Positions 46,881 through 64,000 of a stretch of DNA of 64,000 nucleotides are shown here, in pieces. Origin of the DNA: a virus. The notes beneath the pieces were generated by a model. That model made no database searches and was not told the DNA's origin. It saw only the letters and a list, made by a program, of their open reading frames with translations. A program made the translations under genes and the position numbers. The stretch lies in IMG/VR virus record IMGVR_UViG_3300042922_000250, positions 1 through 64,000 of that record; one strand, 5' to 3'. The stretch's first letter is position 1, and each line of letters begins with the position of its first letter.

Positions 46881-46881
46881 A

Positions 46882-49127: not shown

Positions 49128-49793
49128 TTAATTTATTCGTCTAGCGAATACGCCTTCGCCAAAGCCTTTATATCCGATTTCAGGATAATTCGAAAAACCA
49201 AACACCGAATCGCCAAAATACGATTTAAATTCAATTCCTACTCCGCCTGGCCTAACGAGTAAATTTATAGCGCTAATCAGCGCTATATCGTTTTTAGTGA
49301 GCTCTTTCCCAATCGCTAACCATATCTTCGCATCCCCATTTTCTTTCATCAGCACCTTGGAATTAAACATCCGTACCAAACTGTTAATGGTGCCTTCGGT
49401 GGTTCCGTCTGACGTGTTATATGCGACCTTGGCCCACAGAACGCGCTTATATTCAGCGTCGCCTAACGTGCGCGAAGAATAATAGGTTTCTCCTATGTCG
49501 CGGAATCGCGCCTGATCAAAGCCAGTTACATAAGGCAATTGCTCATAAAAACCAAAAAATGGGATCGTAATTGCCTTGTCTATTTTTCGGGGGCGAACAA
49601 CTATCTCGCCGCAACCGTCTAGTTGTGCACCTGCTCCGGTATCAATCCAACGTTTATTTTGTAAATCGTCAAATACTTGCGCCAATAGATCAAGTTCAGC
49701 GCCAATAGCATCAAGAAGTCCATGCAGATTCGGAGAGTTCGCAAATTGCATCAAAAGGCGATCTGTCATTTGTTGACCATATGCGCTGCTCAT
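49128..49793 (-). CDS. DUF2612 baseplate/tail protein
   Basis: 221 residues. LLMQFANSPNLHGLLDAIGAELDLLAQVFDDL and GAQLDGCGEIV match the DUF2612 family, functionally like tail protein I that links fibres to the baseplate. Overlaps the J-gene stop. Confidence 0.85.
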   Translation of the reverse strand: MSSAYGQQMTDRLLMQFANSPNLHGLLDAIGAELDLLAQVFDDLQNKRWIDTGAGAQLDGCGEIVVRPRKIDKAITIPFFGFYEQLPYVTGFDQARFRDIGETYYSSRTLGDAEYKRVLWAKVAYNTSDGTTEGTINSLVRMFNSKVLMKENGDAKIWLAIGKELTKNDIALISAINLLVRPGGVGIEFKSYFGDSVFGFSNYPEIGYKGFGEGVFARRIN

Positions 49794-51214
49794 CCCGCCG
49801 TCACCTCGATCCTCGCAGCATCAAACGTCGCTAGTTCTCTTACCCCGATATTTATATTGGTGGCAGTGTAGGTCACGCCGTCAGCAGAACCGGTTAACTC
49901 AACATATCCGATCCCTTCCACGTTGCGGATTACATAGGCTGATAATCTTTGCAAGATCACGTTCTGACCAACGGAAAGCGTATTCCCTTGCGTAAGCAAG
50001 TATTCAGCACTTTCCAATACTGCATTACCAGACATCCCGACTTCTGTATCCTCGTGGAGTATACACCGCAAATAAACAGGAATATCCGTAGGGCGATTAA
50101 ATTTAATTATGTGCGGGAGACCCTGACTGTCGGTAACTTCAACGGACACGCTGCCGTATGTATCAATTCCCGCAGCTTTTTTCCTCCAAATTGCATTTGC
50201 AATATCTCCTTCGTCTCCGCCCTGAATAACAGCCTCAATACTGTGTGGAGGCCGTCCATCGCTGTCGGTGGCGTCAGTCGTATTTTCAAAAACAATTGCC
50301 GCCGCGACGCCAACAACGTCGTTAATCAAACTCGCTTGTATGGCTTCCACCATTGCGGCGCCTTGAGAAGAAACTGAGCGGGAATATCTTTGCCGCAGTT
50401 CTGTGTCGGTTTCCAAATCACGACCAGGATATGCAGCACTTTCATTGATGGCAGATGTCCACCCAGCAATCTGAGTGACAATGCTTTTAACTGTGCCGAT
50501 AGCAGGATTGAGCGTGCCTGTTTCCGCTGCGTAAAACTCCACAGGGCTGCCAACATTAACAACAGTCAGCGTCGTGGAATAGTTAACCGCCTTTCCATTA
50601 ATCCGGTCTACCTGGGTATAGGTCAGCACATCGTTTGTCACGCTCGCCGTCCATCCAGCAGGCGAACCTACTGTTAACGCCACTAATACGCTATTAACCG
50701 TATCACCGCCGCCGGCTGTTTTTGTCATGGTCGTTCCGTCAATGGTGACGCTATATGTTGAGCCGTTTGACACGCCGTTAGAGGTAATCGACAGGCTCAC
50801 CGCATTAGACAAACTGATCGTATTTGCCTGATTAGTTTCATAGTAGCTGCTATCCGTCCCCTGGATTTGAGCGCCGCTGCCGATTACCGTCCCTGGGGCG
50901 CCATAGCAAACCTCGTAAAGCTTGGTTTTCTGAGCATTAATTCTGGTAATACCCGCGAATCCCACCGAATTCGACATACTCACGCCGTTTGCGGTGTTTG
51001 GATACATGGCATTATATTGATCTTCGGCCACCTGCCAAAGATCATCAATTGCCGCCACGAATACGCCAATGGCCTGCCCGATAACGCTGTTCGGCTTTGT
51101 GCTAATTGCAACGCCGACTGCAGCCGATAAATTGCTTTCAATATCCGATTTGATTTGATCTAGCCGCTTCCGCACAAAGCCATTTACAGTAACTCCATAT
51201 TCACTCGTCGCCAT
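49790..51214 (-). CDS. Baseplate J/gp47-family protein
   Basis: 474 residues from ATG 51214 behind AAGGAGGTGTTGGGAT. GVTVNGFVRKRLDQIKSDIE at the start, central LETDTELRQRYSRSVSSQGAA, typical of baseplate J-like wedge proteins. Confidence 0.88.
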   Translation of the reverse strand: MATSEYGVTVNGFVRKRLDQIKSDIESNLSAAVGVAISTKPNSVIGQAIGVFVAAIDDLWQVAEDQYNAMYPNTANGVSMSNSVGFAGITRINAQKTKLYEVCYGAPGTVIGSGAQIQGTDSSYYETNQANTISLSNAVSLSITSNGVSNGSTYSVTIDGTTMTKTAGGGDTVNSVLVALTVGSPAGWTASVTNDVLTYTQVDRINGKAVNYSTTLTVVNVGSPVEFYAAETGTLNPAIGTVKSIVTQIAGWTSAINESAAYPGRDLETDTELRQRYSRSVSSQGAAMVEAIQASLINDVVGVAAAIVFENTTDATDSDGRPPHSIEAVIQGGDEGDIANAIWRKKAAGIDTYGSVSVEVTDSQGLPHIIKFNRPTDIPVYLRCILHEDTEVGMSGNAVLESAEYLLTQGNTLSVGQNVILQRLSAYVIRNVEGIGYVELTGSADGVTYTATNINIGVRELATFDAARIEVTAG

Positions 51215-51572
51215 ATCCCAACACCTCCTTTGCGGTAACAAGTCCATAAGTCGTTTCGGCCACAAAATCGACGGTTAATGTTCTGCTTTGGTTGTTCAAC
51301 GTCAAAGATAAAGCAGTTACAGCGAACACATCGTCAACGTCAAGAATTTGCTGGCGCAAGATATTGCGGATATGGTCAAGGCTCGGGTTTTTAATCAGGA
51401 TATCTTCCCAGTATGGCACGCCATAGGTGGTGTCCAGAAACCATTCGCCTAAAAAAGATTTGAGTTTGATTTTTATTTGTTGTGCGACACGCTCAGCGTC
51501 GCTAATCAGCACAAGATCGCCGTCTTTAAAAATCAGGTCATGGTTTGCTGCGGATAGTGCAAAATCATGCAT
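51201..51572 (-). CDS. gp25/DUF2634-like baseplate wedge protein
   Basis: 123 residues: VAQQIKIKLKSFLGEWFLDTTYGVPYWEDIL is the gp25/W-like core. Located between spike and J, as expected. Confidence 0.85.
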   Translation of the reverse strand: MHDFALSAANHDLIFKDGDLVLISDAERVAQQIKIKLKSFLGEWFLDTTYGVPYWEDILIKNPSLDHIRNILRQQILDVDDVFAVTALSLTLNNQSRTLTVDFVAETTYGLVTAKEVLGYGDE

Positions 51573-51583
51573 AAATAACCTCC

Positions 51584-52126
51584 TTAACTCGGAGTCGATG
51601 TATTACTACCGCCAGACTGGACGCCGCCGTGGACATGACCTAAAAACGATATTCCCCCGATAATCAGATCCGTGTTAATGCTGGCCGGTCCGTTCTCAGG
51701 GATAGATAACACGCAGCTACCGTGTTTAATTTCGATCGCATTGTTATTCGTCGCCCTGGTTGGCTTCATGCCAACAAAGGCGGCACAGTCGGTCAGATCA
51801 TACTTTCGCGGATCCTCGCTCTCGCCACTTAACAGCCAATCGTCTATAGACCGCTCAGCAAAAACCAGCCAGCAATCGTCACCATCTTTAACGGGGTATG
51901 TAATTGACGCATTGCCGCCGCTTGGGAAATATACCGGCACATTAACAATGACCGGAGCATCAAGCGTCCGGCCATCGGATACCTTGTATTTTATTGCCGA
52001 CTGCACACTGGCTCTGCCTGTGCCAGGGTCATAACTGATGATCTTGCCGGGGGCAGAGGTGTGAATTCCTGATACTATTCCTTTCGCCAAGTCAACAACG
52101 GCCTGCATTGTCTGGTTGTTACTCAT
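51584..52126 (-). CDS. Gp138-type membrane-puncturing spike protein
   Basis: 180 residues from ATG 52126. PGKIISYDPGTGRASVQSAIKY is the OB-fold start and GDDCWLVFAERSIDDWL the conserved middle of Gp138 N-terminal spikes. Forms the tail tip that pierces the envelope. The C-terminal HVHGGVQSGGSNT stretch may bind metal. Confidence 0.85.
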   Translation of the reverse strand: MSNNQTMQAVVDLAKGIVSGIHTSAPGKIISYDPGTGRASVQSAIKYKVSDGRTLDAPVIVNVPVYFPSGGNASITYPVKDGDDCWLVFAERSIDDWLLSGESEDPRKYDLTDCAAFVGMKPTRATNNNAIEIKHGSCVLSIPENGPASINTDLIIGGISFLGHVHGGVQSGGSNTSTPS

Positions 52127-53021
52127 CTTCATCCACCACAATCAACTCCTGTTCGGTGTACCATTCATTACCGTGCGTGTCCCCTGAATGCTTCATCGTT
52201 TCCACCCGAAACCACCCCGTTACCGTGTCGGATTCAACACGAACCAGATCGCCCGGGTTAACGGTCGGCGCAAGCAGAGTAACTATTTTCCACCCGGCTT
52301 TTTTCTCCGCTTTCTTCTTCTTGACCTTGCGCTTCTTTTTGGCAACTTGGTCAGGACGTTTGACCGCCTTTATAATCCTCTCAGGGCTGCCAACAAGGCC
52401 GCTAGATGGAGAAAAGACCAATGCTCTAACGGTTGTACTGCCGCCGTCCATAATGACCTGCAGGACGTTGTTTTGGATGCTCCACGTTGCCCCGGATGCG
52501 TCCAGGACTTTATTGAGGCATTCCCTACCCTGGCCGACAAAAGAGAATCCTGCCGGGTATGATGCGAGTTCCACGTCAGGCGCAATCTGCGCAACCAGTC
52601 CCATCTGCGCGGTTACATCGGATACGATCTTACTGCCAGCAACCCCCGCAGAATAGCCAAGCGATACAACCGTGTCCCGGATAGCGATTTGCCCGTCTGA
52701 TAGTTCAAACTCAGTTACTCTTTCCGGTCCTTCCCTGCGCGTTGTCGCGTAGGTAACTGCGCCAAGAAAAATACGCCGCAGGCCTATGTCCTCGGCGTAT
52801 CCTACCTGTAATTCGCAGATTAAGTCGTCAACCTCTAACTTCCCCCTGGTCGCTTCCGAAAGGTTATAGATTTTGATTGACGACTTATTTGTCTGCTGGG
52901 TCAGGTCCTTATCGATATCGAACTCAATCCGTAGGCTATCGTTTTTACCGTCGGACTCAATGACAATACCCTCTTCGCCTTGAACCCCAGCCATGAGGCG
53001 AAATATACGGTTAAATTGCAT
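52119..53021 (-). CDS. Baseplate hub protein (gp27/late-control-D-like)
   Basis: 300 residues from ATG 53021. EDIGLRRIFLGAVTYATTRRE, IVSDVTAQMGL and PTVNPGDLVRVESDTVTGWF are typical of hub proteins in DUF3383-type myoviruses. A very basic KKKRKVKKKKAEKK segment near residue 240 is unusual. Confidence 0.75.
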   Translation of the reverse strand: MQFNRIFRLMAGVQGEEGIVIESDGKNDSLRIEFDIDKDLTQQTNKSSIKIYNLSEATRGKLEVDDLICELQVGYAEDIGLRRIFLGAVTYATTRREGPERVTEFELSDGQIAIRDTVVSLGYSAGVAGSKIVSDVTAQMGLVAQIAPDVELASYPAGFSFVGQGRECLNKVLDASGATWSIQNNVLQVIMDGGSTTVRALVFSPSSGLVGSPERIIKAVKRPDQVAKKKRKVKKKKAEKKAGWKIVTLLAPTVNPGDLVRVESDTVTGWFRVETMKHSGDTHGNEWYTEQELIVVDEDE

Positions 53022-53340
53022 TGATTTCAGCCTCCGTGACGTAAACCAGAATAGCCTTGCTGTTCGAAAAGTCATTTCGGCTTACGGTTTGAATTGTGGT
53101 ATCCATAGTTACTATCATGAGTTCGCCGGGAGGCAAGCCGGGGCGGTGATACGGTTTAAGCAAAGGATAGTCCGGCACAGACTTGACGCCTTCAAGCAGC
53201 GAAACACCGCTGTCGCTTCGAATGCTTAACGTCCAGTAACCGCCTACATCGTTGTAAAGCATGCGGATTTTATATTGCGTGCTATCCAGAGTAGCAGTAA
53301 ACACAATATCATTCGCATCTAAAAAGGCTATTGTCTGCAT
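53011..53340 (-). CDS. Baseplate plug-type protein
   Basis: 109 residues from ATG 53340 behind GGAGGTTAATGCA. MLYNDVGGYWTLSIRSDSG is characteristic of the phage baseplate plug family. Overlaps the hub start. Confidence 0.75.
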   Translation of the reverse strand: MQTIAFLDANDIVFTATLDSTQYKIRMLYNDVGGYWTLSIRSDSGVSLLEGVKSVPDYPLLKPYHRPGLPPGELMIVTMDTTIQTVSRNDFSNSKAILVYVTEAEINAI

Positions 53341-53344
53341 TGCA

Positions 53345-53953
53345 TTAACCTCCAAACGCCTTGGATATTCCTTCTAATGCTCTTTTGGCCATAGAGGCCC
53401 TTCGGCCAGAATCATCCGGCGCGTTATTTATTTCCTCCTGCGTAGCCGTTCCGCCGTTCGCTTCCGTCTCTCCTGCCCGGTTGATCATGGACAGGTCAAC
53501 AATGTTTTGCGGAATATCGGTTGTTTTGACCTTTACCCGCCGGATTTGGATAAACTCGCAGGGAATGCGGATTAGGTTTTTGTTTTCGACATTACGAGGA
53601 ATTCTAGCCGATGTCATGACCATGTTTTCCCATGTGTTAAACTGCGTGATAATTGTTATAGGCTGAGCGTTTTTATAAATTTGTTCAAAGGCTGCCAGAG
53701 CGGTACTGACCTTATCCGTCGACTGCCCCAATCTATCCAGCCATGTTACCGGGCTTTGTGTAATGCCGACGACTGCGGAAACCTTGACCGGCTTCCTGAT
53801 TACATGATCGGCGACAGGAAAGCCATCTTCTACCGGATGCTCGGTCACATCGCTTTCAAGGCTGTATTCCTGCTCGACAAGAACATCAACTTCGATTAAT
53901 CCTATCTTTGTTGGATTTGTCAGGTCAGGGAAAAATATGCTTGATGTTGCCAT
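53345..53953 (-). CDS. Dit-like baseplate/tail protein
   Basis: 202 residues. TEHPVEDGFPVADHVIRKPVKVSAVVG matches the conserved core of Dit-like/LysM-domain-adjacent tail proteins in this phage type. Lies immediately after the tape measure. Confidence 0.75.
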   Translation of the reverse strand: MATSSIFFPDLTNPTKIGLIEVDVLVEQEYSLESDVTEHPVEDGFPVADHVIRKPVKVSAVVGITQSPVTWLDRLGQSTDKVSTALAAFEQIYKNAQPITIITQFNTWENMVMTSARIPRNVENKNLIRIPCEFIQIRRVKVKTTDIPQNIVDLSMINRAGETEANGGTATQEEINNAPDDSGRRASMAKRALEGISKAFGG

Positions 53954-53955
53954 TA

Positions 53956-55575
53956 TCAGTCGCCCCCTGGGATCAGATACTGCAGATCGCGGGCCAGTTT
54001 GTCGTTGCTTGATCCGGCAGCTTCTGCGGTTTTTTCTCCGACTTGCGCCGCGACCTGCTGGCCAGTTCCAGCCATATTTTGCTCGATATGGGTGTCGCTG
54101 GTATAGTGAACGACAACCGTACTTCCGCCGCCAATGCTTGCCATTCCAGCAGCGCCGACGCCATATGAACCCATGCCCCCCGCTCCTCCGTTGAAGGTAG
54201 GAGCGTTATCTTTTATTTTCTGAAAAACGGACATTGCTTTTTCGCCCAATCCAGTAAAATGCTCTTTGGCCGTTTCAATCGCGCCGCTGATATCGCCGGT
54301 GAACACTTGCTTCCAAAATTTTAACCCGCGCAGCATTATGTCTATAATACTTTGCCACGTAGACAGCCAACCAGTTTTCAAATCATCCCAGTACCCAATA
54401 AGTTGATCTACTAGCTGAGATATCCAAGCGCTTACCTTGATCTTGAAATCGTCCCAACTGCCGAGCCAATCGCCAAGAACCGATTCGCCGCCTGTTATCC
54501 AGTAATACAAATCCTCGACGACCAAAACCAGAGCCATAATCCCTAACGTTATAGCGGCTATGGTCAGAAAGGCAGGGTTGAGAAGAAACGATAGAAACGA
54601 TTTTGCAAGATTAACAACGCCAATCCTCAAAACACCAAGAGCTATCCTCCACATTTCCAAGGTGAATAGCCCCTCACGGAATATAACAAATGCTACTCCG
54701 AAAGAGGCCAAAGCTATTGTGGCTAACTTAAAAGCGTTAGCCCACCCGCCGACAAGTTTGATTCCTTTTTCGAGAACAGTTGCAATTCCGTCAGCAGCTT
54801 TCATGATTCCCCTAGCGATGTGCTGAAATACGCTAGTTTCCTTGTTCAGACCAAAAATAAGGCTTCCGATCCGGTTCAGCGCATAGGTAACAGATTGTTC
54901 AATCGTTACAGGCATGCGTTCAAATTCGCGGTCCATTTTTGCTTTAGCTTTGAGAATGGCTTTAAAGACACCCTCTGCAGTCAGTTCGCCATCGGCGCCC
55001 ATCTGTTTCAGTTTGCCGACCGTCACACCGTAATATTTCGCTACTTCATCCATCAGTACTGACGCGTTTTCACCCAGGCTGCGCAGTTCGTCGCCCTGCA
55101 GTCGACCGGATGATAACGCCTGACTAAGCTGCAAGATCGTTGCCTGTGCCTGGGCCGTGCCTGCACCGCCAACAACTAAGGCTTTATTTACTGTCTCAGT
55201 TACGTCCAGTATGTCCTGTTGAGATGCGCCTAACTGGTCAGAGCTGCGTGCCATTTTATAATAAAGATCGCCGGTAGCAGCATACTCCTGCCTGGTCTTC
55301 TGTGCAATGTCGAAAACCTTCTGCTGCATGTCCGCTTGTTCTTCTGCGGATTTTGTGACCAGGCCAATCCGGGAATTGACGTTAGTCCATTCGTCGCCGA
55401 TCTTAACGACTTCACCAGCGCCTAGCGCCAGACCGACAACCGCAGCCATCCTGCCAAGAACACCGATAGCGGCAGTTGCACGGTCTTTAATATTCGCAAT
55501 GCCCTGGTCAGCCCTTTTAAGTTTGCTTTCGTCCAGGCTAAAACCAAGACCAATAAGCAGTTCTCTAACGACCAT
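53956..55575 (-). CDS. Tape-measure protein
   Basis: 539 residues. The N-terminal third has the tape-measure domain signature (TVNKALVVGGAGTAQAQATILQ-like core, SGRLQGDELRSLGENASVL), followed by hydrophobic helices at about 285-350 and a Gly-rich C-terminus. Its length (about 80 nm by the usual 0.15 nm per residue) suggests a short-to-medium contractile tail. Confidence 0.9.
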   Translation of the reverse strand: MVVRELLIGLGFSLDESKLKRADQGIANIKDRATAAIGVLGRMAAVVGLALGAGEVVKIGDEWTNVNSRIGLVTKSAEEQADMQQKVFDIAQKTRQEYAATGDLYYKMARSSDQLGASQQDILDVTETVNKALVVGGAGTAQAQATILQLSQALSSGRLQGDELRSLGENASVLMDEVAKYYGVTVGKLKQMGADGELTAEGVFKAILKAKAKMDREFERMPVTIEQSVTYALNRIGSLIFGLNKETSVFQHIARGIMKAADGIATVLEKGIKLVGGWANAFKLATIALASFGVAFVIFREGLFTLEMWRIALGVLRIGVVNLAKSFLSFLLNPAFLTIAAITLGIMALVLVVEDLYYWITGGESVLGDWLGSWDDFKIKVSAWISQLVDQLIGYWDDLKTGWLSTWQSIIDIMLRGLKFWKQVFTGDISGAIETAKEHFTGLGEKAMSVFQKIKDNAPTFNGGAGGMGSYGVGAAGMASIGGGSTVVVHYTSDTHIEQNMAGTGQQVAAQVGEKTAEAAGSSNDKLARDLQYLIPGGD

Positions 55576-55600
55576 GTATCACATCTCCTTTTTAAAGGGC

Positions 55601-55628
55601 ATAAAGAAACCCGCCATTAGGCGGGTTT
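55601..55628 (-). terminator. Terminator downstream of the exported-protein gene
   Basis: AAACCCGCC-TAAT-GGCGGGTTT on the minus strand followed by CTTTAT, between the exported-protein gene and the tape measure. Confidence 0.75.
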
Positions 55629-55632
55629 GTAC

Positions 55633-56085
55633 TTAATATTTCGGCCTTGTATCAATCGTTTCTTTGTTTTCTCGGATGTATTTTTCTATAACCCCATAGG
55701 GAGATTGATTATTATATTTTTTCCATTTATCGCCTCGCGTATCTCCTGTCACCCATTCGCCGTTCTCGTCGAAAGCGGCAAACGACAACAATCTGGCAAT
55801 GCTTTCGTTAATGCTAAATTCATTCGTACTTTCCATAGTGGCAACCTTTGACCACACGTCTTGCTGTTTCTTCGCAAATTCCGGAGAAAAGGTATGCTTA
55901 ATTTTAACCTTGTAGTTTGTTGGCTGGAGTGTAAATTGCTGGATGGTATCCGATTCAAATAAAAACTTGACTTCTGGATTCGCGGTTTTAACCTCGACCC
56001 ACTCAGCAGATGAAATTCCTGGGAAAAACAAAATAGTAATAACAATGAGCAGTTTCCCAATTGTCGATTTAATATATTTCCCCAA
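55633..56085 (-). CDS. Exported protein between terminators (moron)
   Basis: 150 residues with an N-terminal signal peptide (IGKLLIVITILFFPGISSAEW, cleavage after SSA). The mature part is a small soluble domain (surface-protein-like, with VKIKHTFSPEFAKKQQDVW). Flanked by terminators, with an extended -10 (TGGTATAAT) just upstream, so it is expressed independently of the tail operon, probably in the lysogen. Confidence 0.65.
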   Translation of the reverse strand: MGKYIKSTIGKLLIVITILFFPGISSAEWVEVKTANPEVKFLFESDTIQQFTLQPTNYKVKIKHTFSPEFAKKQQDVWSKVATMESTNEFSINESIARLLSFAAFDENGEWVTGDTRGDKWKKYNNQSPYGVIEKYIRENKETIDTRPKY

Positions 56086-56110
56086 AGCATGTCACTCCTT
56101 TTTTGCCATC

Positions 56111-56119
56111 ATTATACCA
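56111..56119 (-). promoter_or_regulatory. Extended -10 promoter of the exported-protein gene
   Basis: TGGTATAAT on the minus strand, about 25 bp upstream of the start codon at 56085. No clear -35 box. Confidence 0.5.
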
Positions 56120-56149
56120 TATTCAACCACCTCCGACTATAATCTCCAA

Positions 56150-56171
56150 CAAAAAGGAGCCTTTCGGCTCC
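56150..56171 (-). terminator. Terminator of the antirepressor operon
   Basis: GGGAGCC-GAAA-GGCTCC followed by TTTTTGTT on the minus strand, just beyond the antirepressor stop. Confidence 0.85.
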
Positions 56172-56188
56172 CGATGACATTTACTACT

Positions 56189-56962
56189 TTAGGCTGTTTT
56201 ATCTCCGTACTTTATTGCCATTTCTTTTACTATGATTAAATAACCTTCTATCAATTTTTTGTCTTCGGCAATAACATCAAGATAATTCAGACTGGCTATC
56301 TTAGACTTGGAAACACCTTCTAACGACATGTTTTTACGTTTGTTTGTCAATCGGATTTTGAGATTAACGCCAAAACGCTCATCGAGAAGCTTATAGCTTT
56401 CTTTTCTCACATCTTGGATTAATTCATTGCCGCCCAATTGCTTGGCTATTTTATTAATTAATGTCGTTGCATCCCGCCGCCAGTCGTTAGGGCTAAGGGC
56501 AACAATCTCACGAATCCCTTTAATCTCATTTGCCTGTTCTTGCTGAGCGGCAGCAAGTCTCTTAATCTCCTTATCTTGTTCAAGAAGAGATTGTGTGGCC
56601 TGAGCAAGTATTTCAAGTTGGGACATTGGCTTAGTCACATACATTCCGGTTCGGCGAATAGCCGGGAGAATTTCGTCAGCAACGATAGCCTGGAAGGCTT
56701 CTGCGGTTTCATTTTTGGCTTTCATCGCCAGCCGGTAGAAGATGTTTTCGGGGATGAATGATTCTGCCACTTGTGGCAGAAGGCCAAATTCTGCTAAATG
56801 ACCATTTACCCTTGACCACCTAACAGATTCATACTCTTTTCCGCTCTTTGTCTCGGTACTGGTAAACCCCAACCCTCTTGCCACATCTTCCAAATTCAAT
56901 TGTGCAACGCCGTTTTCATCAATATACCCTCGTACGCCAGAAATGGTAATTAAATTACTCAT
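56189..56962 (-). CDS. Bro-N / ORF6C phage antirepressor
   Basis: 257 residues from ATG 56962 behind GAGGGAAAAGT. N-terminal DNA-binding Bro-N-type part (VAQLNLEDVARGLGFT ... NIFYRLAMKAKNETAEAFQ ... VADEILPAIRRTGMY), coiled linker, and C-terminal ORF6C-like domain (LSPNDWRRDATTLINKIAKQL). Antirepressors free a phage from repression. Confidence 0.85.
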   Translation of the reverse strand: MSNLITISGVRGYIDENGVAQLNLEDVARGLGFTSTETKSGKEYESVRWSRVNGHLAEFGLLPQVAESFIPENIFYRLAMKAKNETAEAFQAIVADEILPAIRRTGMYVTKPMSQLEILAQATQSLLEQDKEIKRLAAAQQEQANEIKGIREIVALSPNDWRRDATTLINKIAKQLGGNELIQDVRKESYKLLDERFGVNLKIRLTNKRKNMSLEGVSKSKIASLNYLDVIAEDKKLIEGYLIIVKEMAIKYGDKTA

Positions 56963-57083
56963 ACTTTTCCCTCCATTCATTTAACCATTGGTCATAATAT
57001 CTAAAATCTACAAAGATAGTCCCGTCTTCGTGCTCTACCCAATTTGCTAGATTTTGCAGGTCGCATATAATCGTGTCATTCAT
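56955..57083 (-). CDS. 42-residue microprotein (family copy 2)
   Basis: ATG 57083 to TAA 56955. DLQNLANWVEHEDGTIFVDF ... WLNEWREKYE, paralogous to the next gene and to 15724-15843. Its start overlaps the end of the upstream copy. Confidence 0.7.
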   Translation of the reverse strand: MNDTIICDLQNLANWVEHEDGTIFVDFRYYDQWLNEWREKYE

Positions 57084-57192
57084 GCTCCTGCCTCCATTCG
57101 TCCACATATGCCGGGTCAACAATGTATGTACCATCGGTGAACTTCACCCATTTGAAAAAGCCTTGCAGGTCAGCGAACGTTACATTACTCAT
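57076..57192 (-). CDS. 38-residue microprotein (family copy 3)
   Basis: ATG 57192 to TGA 57076. DLQGFFKWVKFTDGTYIVDP ... YVDEWRQEHE. Shares the W-V-x(3-4)-DGT-[YI]-x-VD core with its neighbour and with phage A. Confidence 0.7.
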   Translation of the reverse strand: MSNVTFADLQGFFKWVKFTDGTYIVDPAYVDEWRQEHE

Positions 57193-57281
57193 ATGGCTGC
57201 ACCTGCCTTCTTCTTGTCTATCAGATGTTCAATGAGCATTAAGACAATTAAATCTAACACAAGGCTGTCGTTATCAGTCAT
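57189..57281 (-). CDS. 30-residue helical peptide
   Basis: ATG 57281 to TGA 57189. SLVLDLIVLMLIEHLIDKKK is an amphipathic or membrane-surface helix. Overlaps both neighbours; translation is plausible but unproven. Confidence 0.5.
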   Translation of the reverse strand: MTDNDSLVLDLIVLMLIEHLIDKKKAGAAI

Positions 57282-57391
57282 AATGCATCACCTGCCTCTT
57301 TCTCGCGTTTCGTTTCGGACATTACGTCCCATAGCCAGAGGCGAGCTAGGATTTCAACCAGCGATTCATAGGGGATATCCGTTTTGGTCAT
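57278..57391 (-). CDS. 37-residue helical peptide
   Basis: ATG 57391 to TGA 57278. YESLVEILARLWLWDVMSET is a Trp-rich amphipathic helix. First gene of the antirepressor unit; no strong ribosome site (GGTATTTTT). Confidence 0.45.
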   Translation of the reverse strand: MTKTDIPYESLVEILARLWLWDVMSETKREKEAGDAL

Positions 57392-57437
57392 AAAAATACC
57401 TCCATCATGCTAAACCTTGCAGATAGAGGGTGGAACA

Positions 57438-57453
57438 TGCTATACTTATAGCA
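57438..57453. promoter_or_regulatory. Palindromic operator overlapping a -10 box
   Basis: TGCTATA-CT-TATAGCA, a perfect 7+7 palindrome. It contains TATACT (57441-57446), the -10 box of the plus-strand small-RNA promoter (TTGCAG 18 bp upstream). Ribbon-helix-helix proteins bind sites of this kind. Confidence 0.65.
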
Positions 57454-57532
57454 AGTAAGCCTCTTCTGAGGTTTGCGGGATTGGAAGTCCGTCAGAGCGG
57501 CAAACTTGAGCGGGCTTCCTTTTACTTTTGGG
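57452..57532 (+). ncRNA. Candidate Sar-like small RNA with pseudoknot
   Basis: From the promoter above, the RNA would fold a short CCTC/GAGG hairpin and two interleaved helices, GTTTGC (57471)/GCAAAC (57500-57505) and GGAAGTCC (57483)/GGGCTTCC (57512-57519), an H-type pseudoknot. It ends in TTTTACTTTT inside the 3' end of the repressor gene on the other strand. It opposes the repressor-antirepressor transcript. Confidence 0.5.
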
Positions 57533-57659
57533 ATTTTTCCAGGTCAGATTTTATAAGTGAGATAACATAGTCCTTGAGGGTGATTCCCTCCAGGGCTATT
57601 TTTACTTTTATCTGCTTATAAAAATCTTCATCGACCTTGAAATTGATGGTTTTTTCCAT
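57522..57659 (-). CDS. Ribbon-helix-helix (Arc-like) repressor
   Basis: 45 residues from ATG 57659 behind GGAGGGATGTA. KTINFKVDEDFYKQIKVKIALEG is a beta-ribbon plus helix A, and TLKDYVISLIKSDLE is helix B, the Arc/Mnt/CopG fold. Located upstream of the antirepressor unit, as Arc is relative to Ant in P22. Confidence 0.8.
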   Translation of the reverse strand: MEKTINFKVDEDFYKQIKVKIALEGITLKDYVISLIKSDLEKSQK

Positions 57660-57680
57660 TACATCCCTCCTTGGTACAAT

Positions 57681-57708
57681 ATTACAACATTACATTATAT
57701 AATGTCAA
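57681..57708 (-). promoter_or_regulatory. Promoter of the ribbon-helix-helix gene with palindrome
   Basis: On the minus strand TTGACA (57703-57708), 16 bp, TGTAAT (57681-57686). The spacer contains the perfect palindrome ACATTATATAATGT (57692-57705), a likely autoregulatory operator. Confidence 0.75.
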
Positions 57709-57735
57709 GAGGGATTCCCAAAATAAAAGGAAGCG

Positions 57736-57957
57736 TTATTTTCTTTTCCCCGGCGCATTGTCCTTCGCTCTTGCGTCATCAATCGCTTGGTCCTGAATAT
57801 CAGCCTGCATGTCTAAAATTGCATTTAGCTTTTGTAGGTCAACCAATGTTATATCCCCGGACTTCACCGCCTCCAAGCGGCACTGCTTTGCCGCTATCGG
57901 CTTCCATATGATAAGCTGTTCGGCCACGTCTTGCCGGAGCGTACCGGGGATGTTCAC
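57736..57957 (-). CDS. Small tail-assembly protein (second chaperone position)
   Basis: 73 residues from GTG 57957. Helical; ILDMQADIQDQAIDDARAKDN at the end. Its place between the tail chaperone and the tape measure is that of the second tail-assembly chaperone in many phages; here it has its own start rather than an obvious frameshift. Confidence 0.65.
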   Translation of the reverse strand: MNIPGTLRQDVAEQLIIWKPIAAKQCRLEAVKSGDITLVDLQKLNAILDMQADIQDQAIDDARAKDNAPGKRK

Positions 57958-57995
57958 CGACTTATCCTTCCGTTTGCTAACCCAAATTGGATTAG

Positions 57996-58460
57996 CTAGG
58001 TTATAAAAAAATCGCTGTAGTTCACCCGTAGCACTTGCCAGGCCAGTTCAAACATGCCTTTTAGTTTGCCGTTGTAGATTGCCGCCAGCGCGGCCCTATC
58101 AAGCTTTTTGACCTTATCCCGGTCTCCATAAGGACCATAACTAATATAGTCGCCGTTGAGGATACGAGTAAGCAGGTCATTCAGTTTCGCGCCGCTAACA
58201 GCCGCAGACAGTTGTTTTAATGCGTTTTCAACGTCCAGTTCCTTGCTCAGGAGCTTAGACAGAGTAACGGCTTCTTTCTGAGTTGGCAGTTCCTCCCCGG
58301 GCTCATCGCCTGCGGCGCCAAGGTTCGTTTTCCCAAGCGCAGCCCCTAATGCAGGCAGAACCGTCTTTTGCAGATCGCCCAACAAATCAAGTGATTTGAA
58401 AGGGTCCATAGGGCGAAGGTAAAACGTATATTCGCCCTGATTAAATTCCGTGATATCCAT
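57996..58460 (-). CDS. Tail-assembly chaperone
   Basis: 154 residues after the tube gene with stop/start overlap. EYTFYLRPMDPFKSLDLLGDLQK at the start and ELAWQVLRVNYSDFF at the end fit the chaperone family in this phage type. Confidence 0.7.
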   Translation of the reverse strand: MDITEFNQGEYTFYLRPMDPFKSLDLLGDLQKTVLPALGAALGKTNLGAAGDEPGEELPTQKEAVTLSKLLSKELDVENALKQLSAAVSGAKLNDLLTRILNGDYISYGPYGDRDKVKKLDRAALAAIYNGKLKGMFELAWQVLRVNYSDFFIT

Positions 58461-58885
58461 TAATCATGCCCTCCTACAAACAAAGTGCCGTCAGCGGTAT
58501 TCAGAACCCATTCCGTATTTCCTCCGCTGGCGTCGTTGGTCCGGTTTACCTCCGGATGCTTGGTGATCCACGCCTGCGAGGCGAAAAACGTCGTTCGGCC
58601 CGACAGGTCTTTTACCAGGAGGGGGAGGATTCCATCTCCCTTGCTCCTGTCTCGGGCGTGAATAATTGACAATTCATCATTGCTGGAACTTGATTGTTGC
58701 AGTGGAATCGTGACCTCGTGCCGCCGGTCTGGAGACAAGGTTCTGACGACCTGCCCGTCGCAGCCGACGACGGATGTGATCCCGTCACCCATCGGCGATA
58801 TAGTGATTATGCTGTCTTCGGAGAATCCGTGAATATTCAAGCCGCCAAGGGAAACAAGAACCTTTTTCGGATCATATGTCGGCAT
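58460..58885 (-). CDS. Tail tube protein (DUF3277)
   Basis: 141 residues. YDPKKVLVSLGGLNIHGFSEDS, a GCDGQVVRTLSPDRRHEVTI core and WVLNTADGTLFVGGHD end match the DUF3277 tube family. Confidence 0.85.
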   Translation of the reverse strand: MPTYDPKKVLVSLGGLNIHGFSEDSIITISPMGDGITSVVGCDGQVVRTLSPDRRHEVTIPLQQSSSSNDELSIIHARDRSKGDGILPLLVKDLSGRTTFFASQAWITKHPEVNRTNDASGGNTEWVLNTADGTLFVGGHD

Positions 58886-58899
58886 CCTTTACACCCCCT

Positions 58900-59970
58900 C
58901 TAAAATTCATAGGTCAGACTACCGGTAATTTCAGCAACGTGGATTGCTCCGGCCAGACGCGCAGAAAACGTCATATCCTCCAGGATACGGCTTGCTTTGG
59001 TGTTTGCGCTGATGTTAGCAGCCAATGGTACGCTAATGACATAGCCAGGAATTTCGTTGTCGTCTTCGTCGTATTCCGTCGGCGCGATTCCACCGCGGCG
59101 CTGTCCGAGTTCCAAGGCTTCGGCCATTTTTGCTTCAATGGTGGCAATACCATCATCTGTATATGGCACCTTGTCGCGGTTGATCAACAGGTTAAAAATA
59201 TTGACTTGCATTTCTTCTTGCAACCAATCGCGGAAGCGGATAACGTCAATCCATTCGCCAGCGGCAACCTTGCCGGTCTGAGTAATTGAAACGCTGTCCC
59301 TAAACGATTCGAAGGTATTGCAGTTCTTGGCTTTGGCGGCCAGGAATTGAGTCTCAGTCAGGCGGTCGGTAGTGACTCCGGCCAGTTTCTTGTTTGCCCA
59401 AGTTTCTCCGCCAGGCAATACCGCAAAGCACCGAGCCATGCAAGCCAGTTCCGGAAAGTCTGTCGCGGCGTCAGCGTGGTAAAAACTAAATGTCCGGTAG
59501 TAGTTGCTTTCTTTTAGCAGGTACGGCGTGTCCGTGGTAGACGCTGCGGAAACGGCTCCTGCTTCTGATACAGCAGTCCCAAACAGTTTTCCCTCGGCTT
59601 CGGCCCAAGCGGCCACTGCAAGGATATCGGCAGACGTGCGGCTGGTAAGCCCCAAACCATACCACTGATTATCTTCTTGAACGATTGCTGCCAGCGCAGC
59701 AGCCCAAGAAGCGTCGGCCGCTTTCTTTTGTCCTATCTTTACATAGCGCGGGCGCGGCGTCTGGCTTAGCGCATCGCGCACGGCCAAATAAGCGGCGTCA
59801 GTATCTGTAAATCCGTCGTCCAGCATCGCACTGGCAGACGTATACGTTACCACACGGCTTGATTCAACGACTTCCGGGCAAAGAATCAGGATCGTGTTAA
59901 AATCCTTTTTGTTAATGCCAGTTGTCTGCAAACTAATTTGCACGTTGGCAATTCTGGTTATATCGGCCAT
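58900..59970 (-). CDS. Tail sheath-like protein (DUF3383)
   Basis: 356 residues. ANVQISLQTTGINKKDFNTIL at the start, KTAAD-type middle and GAIHVAEITGSLTYEF at the end identify the DUF3383 family, the contractile sheath of this myovirus group. Confidence 0.85.
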   Translation of the reverse strand: MADITRIANVQISLQTTGINKKDFNTILILCPEVVESSRVVTYTSASAMLDDGFTDTDAAYLAVRDALSQTPRPRYVKIGQKKAADASWAAALAAIVQEDNQWYGLGLTSRTSADILAVAAWAEAEGKLFGTAVSEAGAVSAASTTDTPYLLKESNYYRTFSFYHADAATDFPELACMARCFAVLPGGETWANKKLAGVTTDRLTETQFLAAKAKNCNTFESFRDSVSITQTGKVAAGEWIDVIRFRDWLQEEMQVNIFNLLINRDKVPYTDDGIATIEAKMAEALELGQRRGGIAPTEYDEDDNEIPGYVISVPLAANISANTKASRILEDMTFSARLAGAIHVAEITGSLTYEF

Positions 59971-60521
59971 TATTGCACCCCTTTCGTAGTAATGTTGACC
60001 TCGACCTCTGCCGGGTCTGTTTCGTGTATAGTTTGGTCCCGTTCGCCCAGTTCGCCAGTAACAATGACGGTAGTAATGTAGCCGGGTTCGTCTTCTATCG
60101 ACCTGCCGTACGTAACATACAGGTCAATATTTGCGCGTTCTTCCCAACTCCTGCCGTCAAGTAATGCGGTTAAGTCCTGCGGGGCTTCGGCGCGCGGGAA
60201 CGCAATGCTGGCAGCAAAACAGCGGTCTACAATCGTAGGCCGCTGCAACGCTGTCCAGAGCATATTTAATTTGTCGATTGTGCCGGTCCCGAAAGCATTC
60301 ACGGAAAGGGTAGCCTCTTTCTGGCTAACCACGTCAAGAATGCCGGAACCGTCTTTTCTGCGCCGGACCTCAGTCCCTGTTGTTCGCTCGGCCGACAGGC
60401 GCAGGCTGATATAGGGATTTGATGGTTTTGGCGCGTTTTGGTAATCCCATATACATTTCGTTCCGCCGGTTAACTCCCTGACAAGCGGTAATATAAAGGC
60501 TTTCGCCTCGGGATAGGTCAA
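59970..60521 (-). CDS. Neck/tail terminator protein (gp12/LIC_12616-like)
   Basis: 183 residues. PYISLRLSAERTTGTEVRRR and LDVVSQKEATLSVNAFGTG match the LIC_12616 neck family. The start appears to be TTG 60521, overlapping the upstream stop. Confidence 0.75.
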   Translation of the reverse strand: MTYPEAKAFILPLVRELTGGTKCIWDYQNAPKPSNPYISLRLSAERTTGTEVRRRKDGSGILDVVSQKEATLSVNAFGTGTIDKLNMLWTALQRPTIVDRCFAASIAFPRAEAPQDLTALLDGRSWEERANIDLYVTYGRSIEDEPGYITTVIVTGELGERDQTIHETDPAEVEVNITTKGVQ

Positions 60522-60880
60522 TTGGCCTTCACCTCCACGGCAAAAGACTTGTAATGTGAGATAACCCCCATTTGATGGGCATTACAGCCAACAACTTCCC
60601 ACGTTTTCCCTAACCAAGTGATGAGATCAGCATTTCTGCCAGTGTCTCCTTCAGTTTCTGCCTGTTCAGCAGGGAAAAGCTCGGCGCTAGAGTAAATCTT
60701 CACAGACTTACTCGTCCTGCGTCCCTCTGGAAGAGATTCCATTTCGTCAACTGCAAGCGGCTGAATACTCATTGGTATGGTTAACATGAGCGGGGCTCCA
60801 GGAACCCAATTACCGTCATCTCCATAATCCCCTTCAGTGTTTGCCCTGGTTACTGGTATAGGTTTTCTAAAGCTGCTCAT
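60518..60880 (-). CDS. Head-tail joining protein
   Basis: 120 residues. SIQPLAVDEMESLPEGRRTSKSVKIYS is typical of phage head-closure proteins. Lies in the canonical place between the gp10-like and neck genes. Confidence 0.75.
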   Translation of the reverse strand: MSSFRKPIPVTRANTEGDYGDDGNWVPGAPLMLTIPMSIQPLAVDEMESLPEGRRTSKSVKIYSSAELFPAEQAETEGDTGRNADLITWLGKTWEVVGCNAHQMGVISHYKSFAVEVKAN

Positions 60881-61488
60881 TGGTTCACCTTCCCGCTGCC
60901 GCGCTTGCGGACTACATAACGGATTGATTGACGCATGCGGCCAGAGTCGATAAGGGGGCGAGAACTTTTCTTTTTGCGAATCGTACTGGGGGCATTAGCG
61001 GTAAAAGGGCCGTCAACAATTTTGCGCTGGATATCTCCCTGCATTACGTTGCCGAGCATATCCATGGCCCCCTGCGCCGTAGTCTTACCGTCGACTATTT
61101 GCCCGACTTGTCCCCAAGCTGCCGTTTTCCAAACACCTGTTTTCTCATCGAAAGTATCTCTCATGAATCGGCGCTCAGGGATAGTAACTGAATGAGCACC
61201 AACAGACACATCGCGGGCAAAGTTAGACCGCTTGGCTTTTACGAACCTTCCACCTCGCAGGAATTTGCCCTTTGAACTAATCTTATGAAAGACGGTCTGT
61301 GTTCTAGCTTCACGGTCAATTACGGCACCAAACTCATGTATTGCCCCCAACTCAGCCATATCCATAGTTCCATCCTTGGTCTTTTTGCCCGCCTGCAGCC
61401 CGACAGCAATCTCCTTGCCCTTTAGCTCGGCTAACCCCTGCATGATCCGGCTGAATCCCCGGTCAATATCCCTGATTGCCTTTGCCAC
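60877..61488 (-). CDS. HK97 gp10-like neck/completion protein
   Basis: 203 residues. EIAVGLQAGKKTKDGTMDMAELGAIHEFG and IPERRFMRDTFDEK identify the gp10-like family; the C-terminus has RPLIDSGRMRQSIRYVV. Confidence 0.85.
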   Translation of the reverse strand: MAKAIRDIDRGFSRIMQGLAELKGKEIAVGLQAGKKTKDGTMDMAELGAIHEFGAVIDREARTQTVFHKISSKGKFLRGGRFVKAKRSNFARDVSVGAHSVTIPERRFMRDTFDEKTGVWKTAAWGQVGQIVDGKTTAQGAMDMLGNVMQGDIQRKIVDGPFTANAPSTIRKKKSSRPLIDSGRMRQSIRYVVRKRGSGKVNQ

Positions 61489-61492
61489 GCCA

Positions 61493-61879
61493 TCACCCCA
61501 TCCTCGTTAGAATCGGTGTGATAACCATCCGGCAGATACGCTTGTATTCCAGGCCGTAGGCGGTGCGCTCCAAGTTATCGGTAAAACTGCCGCTATTGGA
61601 GTTATTGCCGTTATCGGAGTAGCTGCGGGATAGGTCGCCCTCTTTCTCAGCTGTCACCCTGCCGCCAGTAGCCGCGCCGCTATTACTGCCAGATTCGGCG
61701 ATGGTCGCCTGCCACGAAAGCCAGTGAGCAACAAGGTAAGCATGCGCCATAGGGTACAGCTTACCAAATTTGCTCTCGCTGATCATTGGCGCAGTTAATT
61801 CGATCAGCGCCGTTACAGTTTCGTCAGTCGTTGCTGTATACTCAGGGGCTACAATGCGGAATGCCTGTAGCACTGTCAT
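61493..61879 (-). CDS. DUF4054 head-tail connector
   Basis: 128 residues. FRIVAPEYTATTDETVTALIE and YPMAHAYLVAHWLSWQ match the DUF4054 connector family. Confidence 0.85.
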   Translation of the reverse strand: MTVLQAFRIVAPEYTATTDETVTALIELTAPMISESKFGKLYPMAHAYLVAHWLSWQATIAESGSNSGAATGGRVTAEKEGDLSRSYSDNGNNSNSGSFTDNLERTAYGLEYKRICRMVITPILTRMG

Positions 61880-61881
61880 GG

Positions 61882-62091
61882 CTATTCACTCGCTTTTTTA
61901 CTGGCTTTGGCAGCACTTGCCGTAGTTTCAGTAATTTCGGTCAGAGCCAGCTTGCCAGCAGAAATATAGGCGGCAATCATCGGATGTGCAGCCTCTTCTG
62001 CGGTAACTTCAATTGCCTCGGCGCCGGGAATGAAGTTTTTCGCCCCAAGGCAGATAACGCCTTTGCTAGTGTTGGTGATGAACTTAGCCAT
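61882..62091 (-). CDS. Small head protein
   Basis: 69 residues: KGVICLGAKNFIPGAEAIEVT then an Ala/Lys/Ser-rich tail. A common small gene between capsid and DUF4054 connector; role unproven. Confidence 0.7.
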   Translation of the reverse strand: MAKFITNTSKGVICLGAKNFIPGAEAIEVTAEEAAHPMIAAYISAGKLALTEITETTASAAKASKKASE

Positions 62092-62092
62092 A

Positions 62093-63049
62093 TTAGCAGC
62101 CCTCCGCTTTCATGAGAGATAACGGGAAATAGATGATCACGCCGCCATTCCGGGAGTGGCATGGAACAACGTACTCCAAACCTTCCATTTGCACCGGAAA
62201 CTGTTCGAACGGTTGCGGGATCTCAAGGGTCAGTTTGTCTGGCGATTTCTTGTAGATCATGCAGATATCAGTCCCGCCTGTGCCGACGCCAACAAACTCT
62301 GGAACGACCTGAACACTCTTGATATACGGATTGTTTGCCAAAAAGAAGGCCAGGATAGTAACCTGCGTATCGCCTACACGCCGACTGGTCAAGTCAGAGT
62401 GGGTCGTGTGACCAAGCAGGAGAGTGTCCGGCCTTTCTATGTTCTTGGTTAATTCCAACATCTTAGTAACCATGCCATTCAGATCACGCAATACTTGATC
62501 AGCGGTCTTGTCCTTAAACTTAGTGCTAGTGCCAGTTCCGTCCGCAGGCAATGTGTAAGCCGGAATATTTGGATGAGTCAACAGTCCGACAAGGCCATGT
62601 TCTTCGTCGCCGAAAAAAGCAATGTCGTTGACCTGCTGGTCATTGGCGCGGCGCGCGGCGCTGGCTTTGCGTTGTTCAAGCGGTTTGCCCGCCATCCGTG
62701 CGCCCCGGATATCCTGGATCGAATAGCCGTAGCTAACGCCAATGGACTTCACGTCAGAGGTGAATTTCTTGCCGACCAGATCCACGCGCGGCAAGTCGGT
62801 TGAATAGTTGGCAATAATTTTCGCTTGCCCGACTTCGCCGTACTGGTGGTAGGTAATGGTTTCAGCACCGGCGCCTGCAGAGCTATCAACCGGGATAATC
62901 CCAAGTGCGGACAGTTCAGCCAATACAATGTCATATGTCCGGGCCTTTACACTCTCCAATTCCTGGGCAAAGAAAATGCTCTCGTTGGCGTCAAGCCGCT
63001 GAGAGCTTTCAATTGCATATAAATCTCTTTCGTCGTAACGTTTTTCCAT
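62093..63049 (-). CDS. Major capsid protein (DUF2184)
   Basis: 318 residues. Middle segment GVSYGYSIQDIRGARMAGKPL and KLTLEIPQPFEQFPVQMEGLEY identify the DUF2184 capsid family (HK97 fold). No scaffold domain is visible. Confidence 0.88.
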   Translation of the reverse strand: MEKRYDERDLYAIESSQRLDANESIFFAQELESVKARTYDIVLAELSALGIIPVDSSAGAGAETITYHQYGEVGQAKIIANYSTDLPRVDLVGKKFTSDVKSIGVSYGYSIQDIRGARMAGKPLEQRKASAARRANDQQVNDIAFFGDEEHGLVGLLTHPNIPAYTLPADGTGTSTKFKDKTADQVLRDLNGMVTKMLELTKNIERPDTLLLGHTTHSDLTSRRVGDTQVTILAFFLANNPYIKSVQVVPEFVGVGTGGTDICMIYKKSPDKLTLEIPQPFEQFPVQMEGLEYVVPCHSRNGGVIIYFPLSLMKAEGC

Positions 63050-63065
63050 TCGTGCAATCGCCTCC

Positions 63066-63527
63066 TTAATTTAGTTCCACTACGGCCAACCCGGCCCCAG
63101 TGGTTGAAGTGATAAATTTAGCGCCGGTAATTGCAGACGCCAGCGGACCAGCACCAGCCGCAGCAGCCCATTTGCCTTTGTTTGCACCGGAGAATACCAG
63201 GAAAGCGCCGTTGCCGGCAGTAACCGCCTCAGTGACAGGAACCCACGCCCGGCCTTTGTTTAGGACCGGAACTGTCTGCTCATCCTTATAGATTACATTG
63301 CCGTCTGCGTCCTGCTCTTTTGCCTGCAGCATCGCAATCCCAGCTACTACAGCAGTAGTTGCAGCAGCAAGCTTTACCTGCTTTTCTTTATTTGTTCCAA
63401 GGATAACGCCCATTCCCGGGTAAATGTCATCTGTTTCAACAGCATAGGCATCCACACGACGAAAAGAAATATCGTACTGCGTACCGGCAAGCCCAACGGG
63501 CATTTTCTGATTATAGGTCAGTTGCAT
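63066..63527 (-). CDS. Capsid cement/decoration protein (DUF2190-like)
   Basis: 153 residues. KMPVGLAGTQYDISFRRVDAY and GMGVILGTNKEKQVKL, Ala/Val-rich beta structure, matches structural cement proteins preceding DUF2184 capsids. Confidence 0.75.
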   Translation of the reverse strand: MQLTYNQKMPVGLAGTQYDISFRRVDAYAVETDDIYPGMGVILGTNKEKQVKLAAATTAVVAGIAMLQAKEQDADGNVIYKDEQTVPVLNKGRAWVPVTEAVTAGNGAFLVFSGANKGKWAAAAGAGPLASAITGAKFITSTTGAGLAVVELN

Positions 63528-63529
63528 TA

Positions 63530-64000
63530 TTATTTACCCCCTTTGTCTTCGCCCTTATAGGCGTTTTGTTGGCGCTCAATCATTTTCTGGCGGCGACCTT
63601 CGGCAGAATCTTCCTCTGCGTCGGCTCGTTTGCTGACCTGATACAGTTTCTTGCGCTGCTCGGCCATGCTATCGGTCCGTTTTTCGGCTTTCGCTAGGTC
63701 AAAGGCGGCGTTGATATAGTCGTCAGATTTGCCGGCAGGGTCGAATGAATCACCGTGAACAGCCTTAATAACGGCTAGTTTGATATCCTTGTCAGTTAGC
63801 TCGTCGGCTTTGTCGATACGGAAAGTACCGGCAACCTGCAGCAGATCGACGCGAGTCTTTACCGCGGCGTTAATGCTGTCAGCAGCATCCTTGCGGACCT
63901 TTTCCAGTTCTCCCGGGTGAGCATCGACCTTTACTCTCAAGGTGTCGCGTTCGGCTGTCACGGAGTCAAGCCGCTTCTGAGTATCCTTGCCTGTAGTTTC
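63530..64000 (-). CDS. DUF2213-type head protein (5' end beyond the window)
   Basis: The frame stays open to the right edge; 13 more codons precede the internal GTG 63961, so the true start is outside. The visible 156 residues are the C-terminal part: coiled coil (AERDTLRVKVDAHPGELEKV), a DSFDPAGKSDDYINAAFDLA helix and a basic tail. DUF2213 proteins are scaffold/protease-type head genes upstream of DUF2190. Confidence 0.75.
   Translation of the reverse strand, partial: ETTGKDTQKRLDSVTAERDTLRVKVDAHPGELEKVRKDAADSINAAVKTRVDLLQVAGTFRIDKADELTDKDIKLAVIKAVHGDSFDPAGKSDDYINAAFDLAKAEKRTDSMAEQRKKLYQVSKRADAEEDSAEGRRQKMIERQQNAYKGEDKGGK

Follow-up and report, generated by a model that had tools for sequence, protein, structure and literature searches.

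What controls an antirepressor gene that lies within the tail operon of a phage is the question raised by a locus in a 73,828-base IMG/VR virus record, of which a 64,000-nt part (the window) was analysed. Antisense control of antirepressors is textbook knowledge for phages P22 and P1. A first-pass annotation of the window had read the locus as a module like immI of P22, with a ribbon-helix-helix (RHH) repressor, an antirepressor and an opposing small RNA, and all of the pieces it named were found where it had placed them (Table 1).

Layout of the locus

The unit is encoded on the minus strand between the gene of a tail assembly chaperone (57996-58460, minus strand) and the tape measure gene (53956-55575, minus strand) and is read in the order rhh, m37, m30, m38, m42, Bro-N antirepressor gene and terminator-like hairpin. 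It represents an antirepressor cassette within the tail operon of a probably temperate myovirus. A near-identical phage (locus L082; DNA about 90% identical across the tail genes' region) is probably temperate because it encodes a tyrosine integrase, an XRE repressor and an M78 peptidase.

The surroundings of the unit have features of their own. The record seems to join two adjacent phages, of which one is temperate and podovirus-like and the other is the myovirus that bears the antirepressor unit (45521-64000). The podovirus-like part (13378-17937 of the window) contains an integrase gene (16768-17937), XRE repressors and its own Rha+KilAC antirepressor gene (13378-14112). A gene for a 261-aa radical-SAM-like protein is found at both ends of the record (window 3699-4484; L155 7309-8094). 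Between the antirepressor and tape measure genes, 55633-56085 (minus strand) encodes a 150-aa secreted-looking protein that is 99% identical in L082, compared with about 90% for the flanks, which indicates recent exchange or strong constraint.

Table 1. Features of the antirepressor unit, in window coordinates
Feature	Position	Strand	Remarks
rhh operon promoter	57679..57708 (palindrome 57692-57705)	-	TTGACA-N18-TAATAT, palindrome ACATTATATAATGT in the spacer; probable RHH operator
rhh, 45-aa ribbon-helix-helix protein, probable autorepressor	57522..57659	-	PHROG 37719, E 2e-12; AlphaFold pLDDT 90
Predicted antisense RNA, about 73 nt	57453..57526	+	hairpin 1 57455-57476, hairpin 2 57483-57519, U-rich tail 57520-57529
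Element U of the mRNA leader (GCAAACCTCAGAAGAGG)	57460..57476	-	within the antisense-covered segment; pairs with M, p=0.003 against shuffles
Palindrome flagged in the first-pass annotation (TGCTATACTTATAGCA)	57438..57453	.	extended -10 of the antisense promoter; at the mRNA level, apex hairpin of U:M
Antisense RNA promoter	57417..57446	+	TTGCAG-N18-TATACT, extended -10 TGC; opposite-strand promoter at the equivalent place in 23 loci
Element M, anti-SD arm (CCTCTATCTGCAAGGTTTAGC)	57409..57429	-	partner is U (ON) or D (OFF); overlaps the antisense -35
Element D (GCATGATGGAGG) with U-run	57392..57410 (D 57410-57399)	-	SD GGAGG of m37, then UAUUUUU; SD-sequestering/terminator-like hairpin with M
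m37 (37 aa), the first gene that the switch would control	57278..57391	-	81% aa identity to L082, dN 0.09 / dS 0.64; homologue in L107
m30, 30 aa	57189..57281	-	4-nt overlap (ATGA) with m37; dN 0.21 / dS 1.26
m38, 38 aa	57076..57192	-	4-nt overlap with m30; 95% aa identity to L082, dN 0.02 / dS 0.29
m42, 42 aa from ATG 57083 (59 aa if from 57134)	56955..57083	-	paralogue of m38, 42% identity
Bro-N antirepressor, 263 aa	56189..56980	-	Pfam Bro-N 8.6e-8; PHROG anti-repressor 8e-30
Terminator-like hairpin ending the unit	56155..56172	-	GGGAGCCGAAAGGCTCCT-TTTTG

Relatives of the unit

L082 shares with the window rhh, the microprotein genes and the RNA region (124 of 131 positions identical); behind this shared front end, a Bro-N + KilAC antirepressor of comparable length takes the place of the Bro-N protein. 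Yet another Bro-N + KilAC antirepressor follows the same front end in L107. In L084-L086, rhh and its promoter are retained, and the antisense unit is altered in sequence but has kept its parts. Profile searches added L092, L096, L098, L099, L104, L106, L108, L110-L112, L137-L141, L143, L145, L148 and L149, of which L098 is a plasmid (pJMUB3934p1) of Leptotrichia wadei JMUB3936 with the order RHH, Rha, tape measure. Weak RHH matches in L113-L115, L121, L122, L130 and L132 were inspected and excluded as a different kind of RHH protein. A direct DNA search of phage records matched the antirepressor gene alone, with chance matches for the RHH/RNA region, and tblastn with the RHH protein against phages yielded chance-level matches only. 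The comparisons of promoters given below cover 23 loci, the window and 22 others, selected through RHH similarity. These loci are partly dependent (L140, L145, L148 and L149 stem from one genome; window, L082 and L107 are close, as are L111 and L137), hence figures with one locus per cluster are given in addition.

Some of the related loci have peculiarities. Genome G871 contains six RHH relatives, and L140, L145, L148 and L149 each have an antisense RNA and a Bro-N-like gene, which makes them a multi-copy family. L142, L144, L146 and L147 are pairs of RHH and Bro-N-like genes without a recognisable antisense RNA; instead of it, L144 and L147 carry short tandem hairpin repeats (GGTTATTCCCTCAAAGGGCATAACC-like). 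In L138, an ssNA-helicase RNA of Rfam (RF03070, 52 bits) occupies 966-1012 on the minus strand, within about 0.5 kb of the RHH-family gene. In L108, a RecA homologue (Pfam RecA 6e-92), 95-907 past the rhh stop codon, is under the RHH + antisense RNA unit and is followed by an integrase fragment.

The RHH protein and its promoter

AlphaFold predicts the product of rhh as strand-helix-helix, and the nearest solved folds identified with Foldseek in the PDB are those of Arc (TM 0.86) and ParG (0.83); CopG scores 0.65. A sequence search of the PDB revealed no close relative of the RHH protein and no Arc chain. Likewise, the RHH profile (A7) did not match Arc, with which the protein has only the fold in common, and CopG was not recovered with this profile.

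The palindrome in the spacer of the rhh promoter is perfect, and the -35 box and spacer are kept in L082 and L084-L086. Other members have 8-bp-spaced repeats at the matching place, and the rhh promoters of L140, L145, L148 and L149 are unclear. A scan with the operator pattern returned only contigs already known from the other searches. The first-pass description of an Arc-like gene with a palindromic, autoregulated promoter agrees with these data in fold and palindrome; from the fold and the operator-like repeats, we infer autorepression of this promoter, and hence of the whole operon, by the RHH protein.

The antisense promoter

The first-pass annotation had placed a plus-strand promoter with a perfectly palindromic -10 box between rhh and the antirepressor unit. 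The promoter is there, with an extended -10 (TGC TATACT) 18 nt after TTGCAG, but the palindrome is not strictly perfect, being composed of two 7-nt arms, TGCTATA and TATAGCA, on either side of a 2-nt spacer, CT. The window promoter taken alone is ordinary (p=0.13 against dinucleotide shuffles). It is the relatives, not the window alone, that place the antisense promoter beyond chance. An opposite-strand sigma70 promoter just past the rhh stop codon is found in the 23 loci with a Fisher combined p of about 1e-16, and the sense strand of the same DNA, used as control, gave p=0.97. Four RHH relatives lacking the antisense RNA (L142, L144, L146, L147) had been omitted from the initial test; when these loci without antisense promoter were added back, p was 7e-15, and with one locus per cluster plus these four it was about 3e-13. 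The promoters of the 23 divergent loci are near-consensus, in most cases with a spacing of 17-18 nt. The proposal that an RNA opposes the repressor-antirepressor transcript thereby receives comparative support. The chance-level score of the window promoter would also fit a plus-strand element that is merely a terminator against stray plus-strand transcription, with the promoter a by-product of AT-rich DNA; this reading is hardly credible in view of near-consensus promoters at the equivalent place in 23 divergent loci and of a two-hairpin RNA that is kept despite sequence change.

It had also been proposed that the RHH protein binds and coordinates both promoters, including 57438-57453. Both sites are AT-rich palindromes with TATA, but their sequences differ (ACATTATATAATGT versus TGCTATACTTATAGCA), and at the antisense promoter no copy of the rhh promoter repeats is seen in the window or, overall, in 18 of the 23 loci, the remaining five having scattered one-mismatch matches. 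Coordination of both promoters by the RHH protein is quite improbable on this evidence, and 57438-57453 was rejected as an RHH-like site; as RNA, it forms the apex of the leader hairpin.

Predicted fold and conservation of the antisense RNA

The 3' end of the predicted antisense RNA (UUUUACUUUU) overlaps the rhh stop codon (57522-57524). Relative to shuffles, the folding z of the plus-strand RNA is -2.3 to -3.1 in the window, -4.7 in L082 and -5.5 in L107, with a mean of -3.8 for the antisense RNAs across loci. The predicted RNAs start mostly 42-80 nt past the rhh stop codon; automated placement put the starts of L138 and L148 at a greater distance, for L138 (+125) probably in error. Most loci have a short hairpin 1, a long hairpin 2 and then a U-rich tail that reaches or overlaps the rhh stop codon, and in L096 the antisense unit is decayed.

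Among most loci the RNA sequences are unalignable and the two-hairpin form is retained. For the nine most divergent RNAs, which MAFFT was unable to align, RNAalifold returned no consensus. In an alignment of eight RNAs, hairpin 2 contained 12 cells changed on both sides of the pair compared with 4.3 in shuffles, and its covariation score of 0.49 (0.25 in shuffles) was reached by none of 500 shuffles; slid controls were all far lower, with pairing of about half or less. The antisense stems hold G-U pairs whose counterparts on the sense strand are C-A mismatches, which identifies the antisense strand (the plus strand of the window) as the one selected to fold. The loops of hairpin 2 often seem to contain UUGG or its complement on either strand, as in UUUGGCGA or CUUUGGUCGG. 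Such loops fit the YUNR U-turn rule for kissing loops (PMC4485353).

A pseudoknot suggested in the first-pass annotation can be drawn with GTTTGC/GCAAAC in the window and L082 and, with other sequences, in L099; the two hairpins are better supported, and the complementarity is not common to all relatives. Rfam contained no match above the gathering score at the element in the window and 20 related loci. A ribozyme reading of the RNA was considered and dropped.

A predicted three-part switch in the mRNA leader

The mRNA leader between rhh and the next gene contains three elements, U, M and D (Table 1). In the window, U:M comprises 17 pairs (-17.3 kcal/mol) and M:D has a calculated energy of -14.8 kcal/mol. 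Over 20 loci, the combined p is 1e-16 for U:M and 8e-12 for the M:D hairpin (1.5e-13 and 2e-9, respectively, with one locus per cluster). The modelled probability that the SD sequence of the window is unpaired is 0.34 in the free leader and 0.00 after removal of the antisense-covered part, which mimics the antisense-bound state; in several relatives, the modelled accessibility is barely altered. These computed structures are mutually exclusive and are switched by the antisense-covered segment, as in attenuation of the pIP501/pT181 type. In about 11 of the 20 loci, the window included, D is succeeded by a U-run (at least 5 T in 8). Since it is clear in only about half of the loci, termination cannot be the universal step.

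P22 has the same gene order and a two-hairpin RNA that ends at the stop codon of the RHH gene, and antisense pairing always permits RNase III cleavage. The RNA might therefore act like Sar of P22, pairing with the mRNA to block translation directly or to trigger RNase III cleavage, with U:M:D being incidental. Yet the SD sequence of the next gene lies outside the antisense RNA in all 20 analysable members, the distance from the 5' end of the RNA to the next start codon is 46-78 nt in 19 of the 20 (62 nt in the window), and the U:M and M:D pairings are strongly above shuffles. A Sar-like action is thus unlikely. The U:M:D leader together with the uncovered SD sequence favours attenuation, as in pIP501, over the masking of a ribosome site, as by Sar, and the models indicate that attenuation is most likely the way in which the antisense RNA acts.

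Genes behind the front end

The annotation of a Bro-N antirepressor at the locus is borne out by the Pfam and PHROG matches. The four microprotein genes that precede it, for which the first-pass annotation had suggested a place in the module, are present and translationally chained through overlaps of 4-26 nt, and in comparison with L082 the dN/dS of the three measured (m37, m30, m38) is well below 1, indicative of purifying selection. They do not belong to the core of the unit, being found only in the window, in L082 and, in part, in L107. Distant relatives of m38 are encoded in L013 and L023; a search with the m38 protein yielded chance matches only in phages and only the known contig in IMG/VR.

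Short genes under purifying selection directly after the RNA, one of which (m30) encodes a hydrophobic 30-aa peptide whose tail is charged, are reminiscent of a type I toxin-antitoxin system in which the antisense RNA would be the RNA antitoxin against m30 or m37. The restriction of the microproteins to the window, L082 and part of L107, and the position of the antirepressor gene directly after the RNA in eight loci (L098, L112, L137, L139, L140, L141, L145 and L149), render such a system very improbable.

The downstream gene is of the Bro-N type in the window, L137, L140 and L145 (in L149 just below the cut-off), of the Rha type in L098, L112 and L139, and of the ORF6N type in L141 and L143 and, by eye, in decayed form in L096. 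Other genes follow in L092 (portal), L099 (DUF6809), L084 (a 78-aa gene, then integrase), L104 and L110 (a small ORF, then an HNH-like gene), L106 (a small ORF, then a TnpB-like gene) and L138 (a small ORF, then integrase). Control of an antirepressor is therefore the usual, not the sole, use of the RHH + antisense RNA unit.

Comparison with known systems

In P22, immI lies among late genes as a moron (PMC2629481). The unit resembles it in this location, in an RHH gene that is first in the operon and in an antirepressor gene downstream; moreover, sar RNA (70 nt, 15021-15090) also has two hairpins and terminates at the stop codon of arc (15022). It differs from immI in that it lacks Mnt and no divergent promoter or regulator gene was seen, the gene upstream of rhh (57736-57957) being on the same strand and weakly related to DUF6889. 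Arc lies outside the RHH profile (0.3 bits). The antirepressor of the window is annotated as a Bro-N protein and as a PHROG anti-repressor. Finally, sar reaches the ant start codon and covers the SD sequence, while the RNA of the present unit begins 46-78 nt upstream, with the three-part leader in between. The immI logic of an RHH autorepressor, an antisense RNA and an antirepressor among late genes, as seen in the first-pass annotation, holds, but the unit is not a member of P22 immI, though it would work like it.

In copG-RNAII-repB of plasmid pMV158, the antisense RNA is intergenic and has an intrinsic terminator (PMC4485353, PMC5717011). The similarity extends to a 45-aa RHH autorepressor that is cotranscribed with the controlled gene. 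The controlled gene of pMV158, however, is that of a replication initiator, and RNAII, with 48 nt and one hairpin, blocks repB translation; no rep gene lies downstream in the window, and CopG has no profile match, with a fold TM of 0.65. The copR-RNAIII-repR system of pIP501 combines a repressor with an antisense RNA that attenuates the mRNA leader and has a U-turn loop at the kissing site (PMC4981023). With it, the unit has in common the protein repressor, the antisense RNA and, probably, leader attenuation and a U-turn loop; it differs from pIP501 in that CopR has 92 aa and its own gene arrangement, RNAIII has 136 nt, and the controlled gene is rep.

In P1, ant is coupled to a small upstream gene, icd, and c4 RNA is processed from a same-strand transcript. 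To our knowledge, the c4-icd-ant immI region of P1 has no RHH protein. It is c4, a small antisense RNA, that controls the P1 antirepressor (PMC8546580).

The unit combines features of P22 immI, pMV158 and pIP501 in the service of antirepressors and is not itself immI. Among open-licence papers, no description of an arrangement of RHH protein, antisense RNA and antirepressor was found.

Proposed mechanism

Taken as a whole, the best explanation, which we regard as probable on the basis of sequence, structural models and analogy, is that the RHH protein, the antisense RNA and the U/M/D leader switch control the antirepressor cassette together. The RHH protein would repress its own promoter and so the operon, and the opposite-strand promoter, which has comparative support, would yield the two-hairpin antisense RNA of about 73 nt that ends at the rhh stop codon. 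In the absence of the antisense RNA, U would pair with M, the SD sequence of m37 would be free, the polymerase would read on and the antirepressor would be made. In its presence, U would be occupied, M would pair with D and the next gene would be shut through sequestration of the SD sequence, to which premature termination would be added where a U-run follows D, as in the window. The effect would be relayed to the antirepressor through the four chained, overlapping microprotein genes.

In a lysogen both brakes, the RHH protein and the antisense RNA, would be on. In a freshly infected cell neither would yet have accumulated, so that antirepressor would be produced in a burst and could inactivate the resident or the phage's own repressor, by analogy with P22 and Cop-controlled plasmids. 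Release on entry into a naive cell is known for P22 ant. It has been shown for Cop-controlled plasmids as well (PMC5717011).

Implications

On balance we lean towards the wider reading that the unit exemplifies a widespread, undescribed class of phage switches. In this class, a three-part SD/terminator leader would be under the joint control of a 45-aa RHH protein and a two-hairpin antisense RNA that evolves fast; the front end would move between phages as one piece and be placed before exchangeable antirepressors (Bro-N, KilAC, Rha, ORF6N), at times before RecA or integrase, and the RNA would also be an immunity determinant. This reading spans Clostridia-type phages, Leptotrichia and Exiguobacterium elements (the latter in strain PFWT01) and several viral contigs. 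In phages whose hosts are Gram-positive or fusobacterial, antisense control of antirepressors had, as far as found, not been recognised as a general design. The RHH family looks unrelated and the RNA mechanism differs, so the recurrence of the same anatomy suggests convergence or very ancient descent.

If the reading is true, a resident phage would silence the antirepressors of incoming relatives that share its RNA but not of those whose RNA differs, which predicts RNA-based specificity of superinfection between phages. The arrangement provides a sequence signature for finding antirepressor operons, and the question of why antirepressors are silent in most prophages becomes directly testable.
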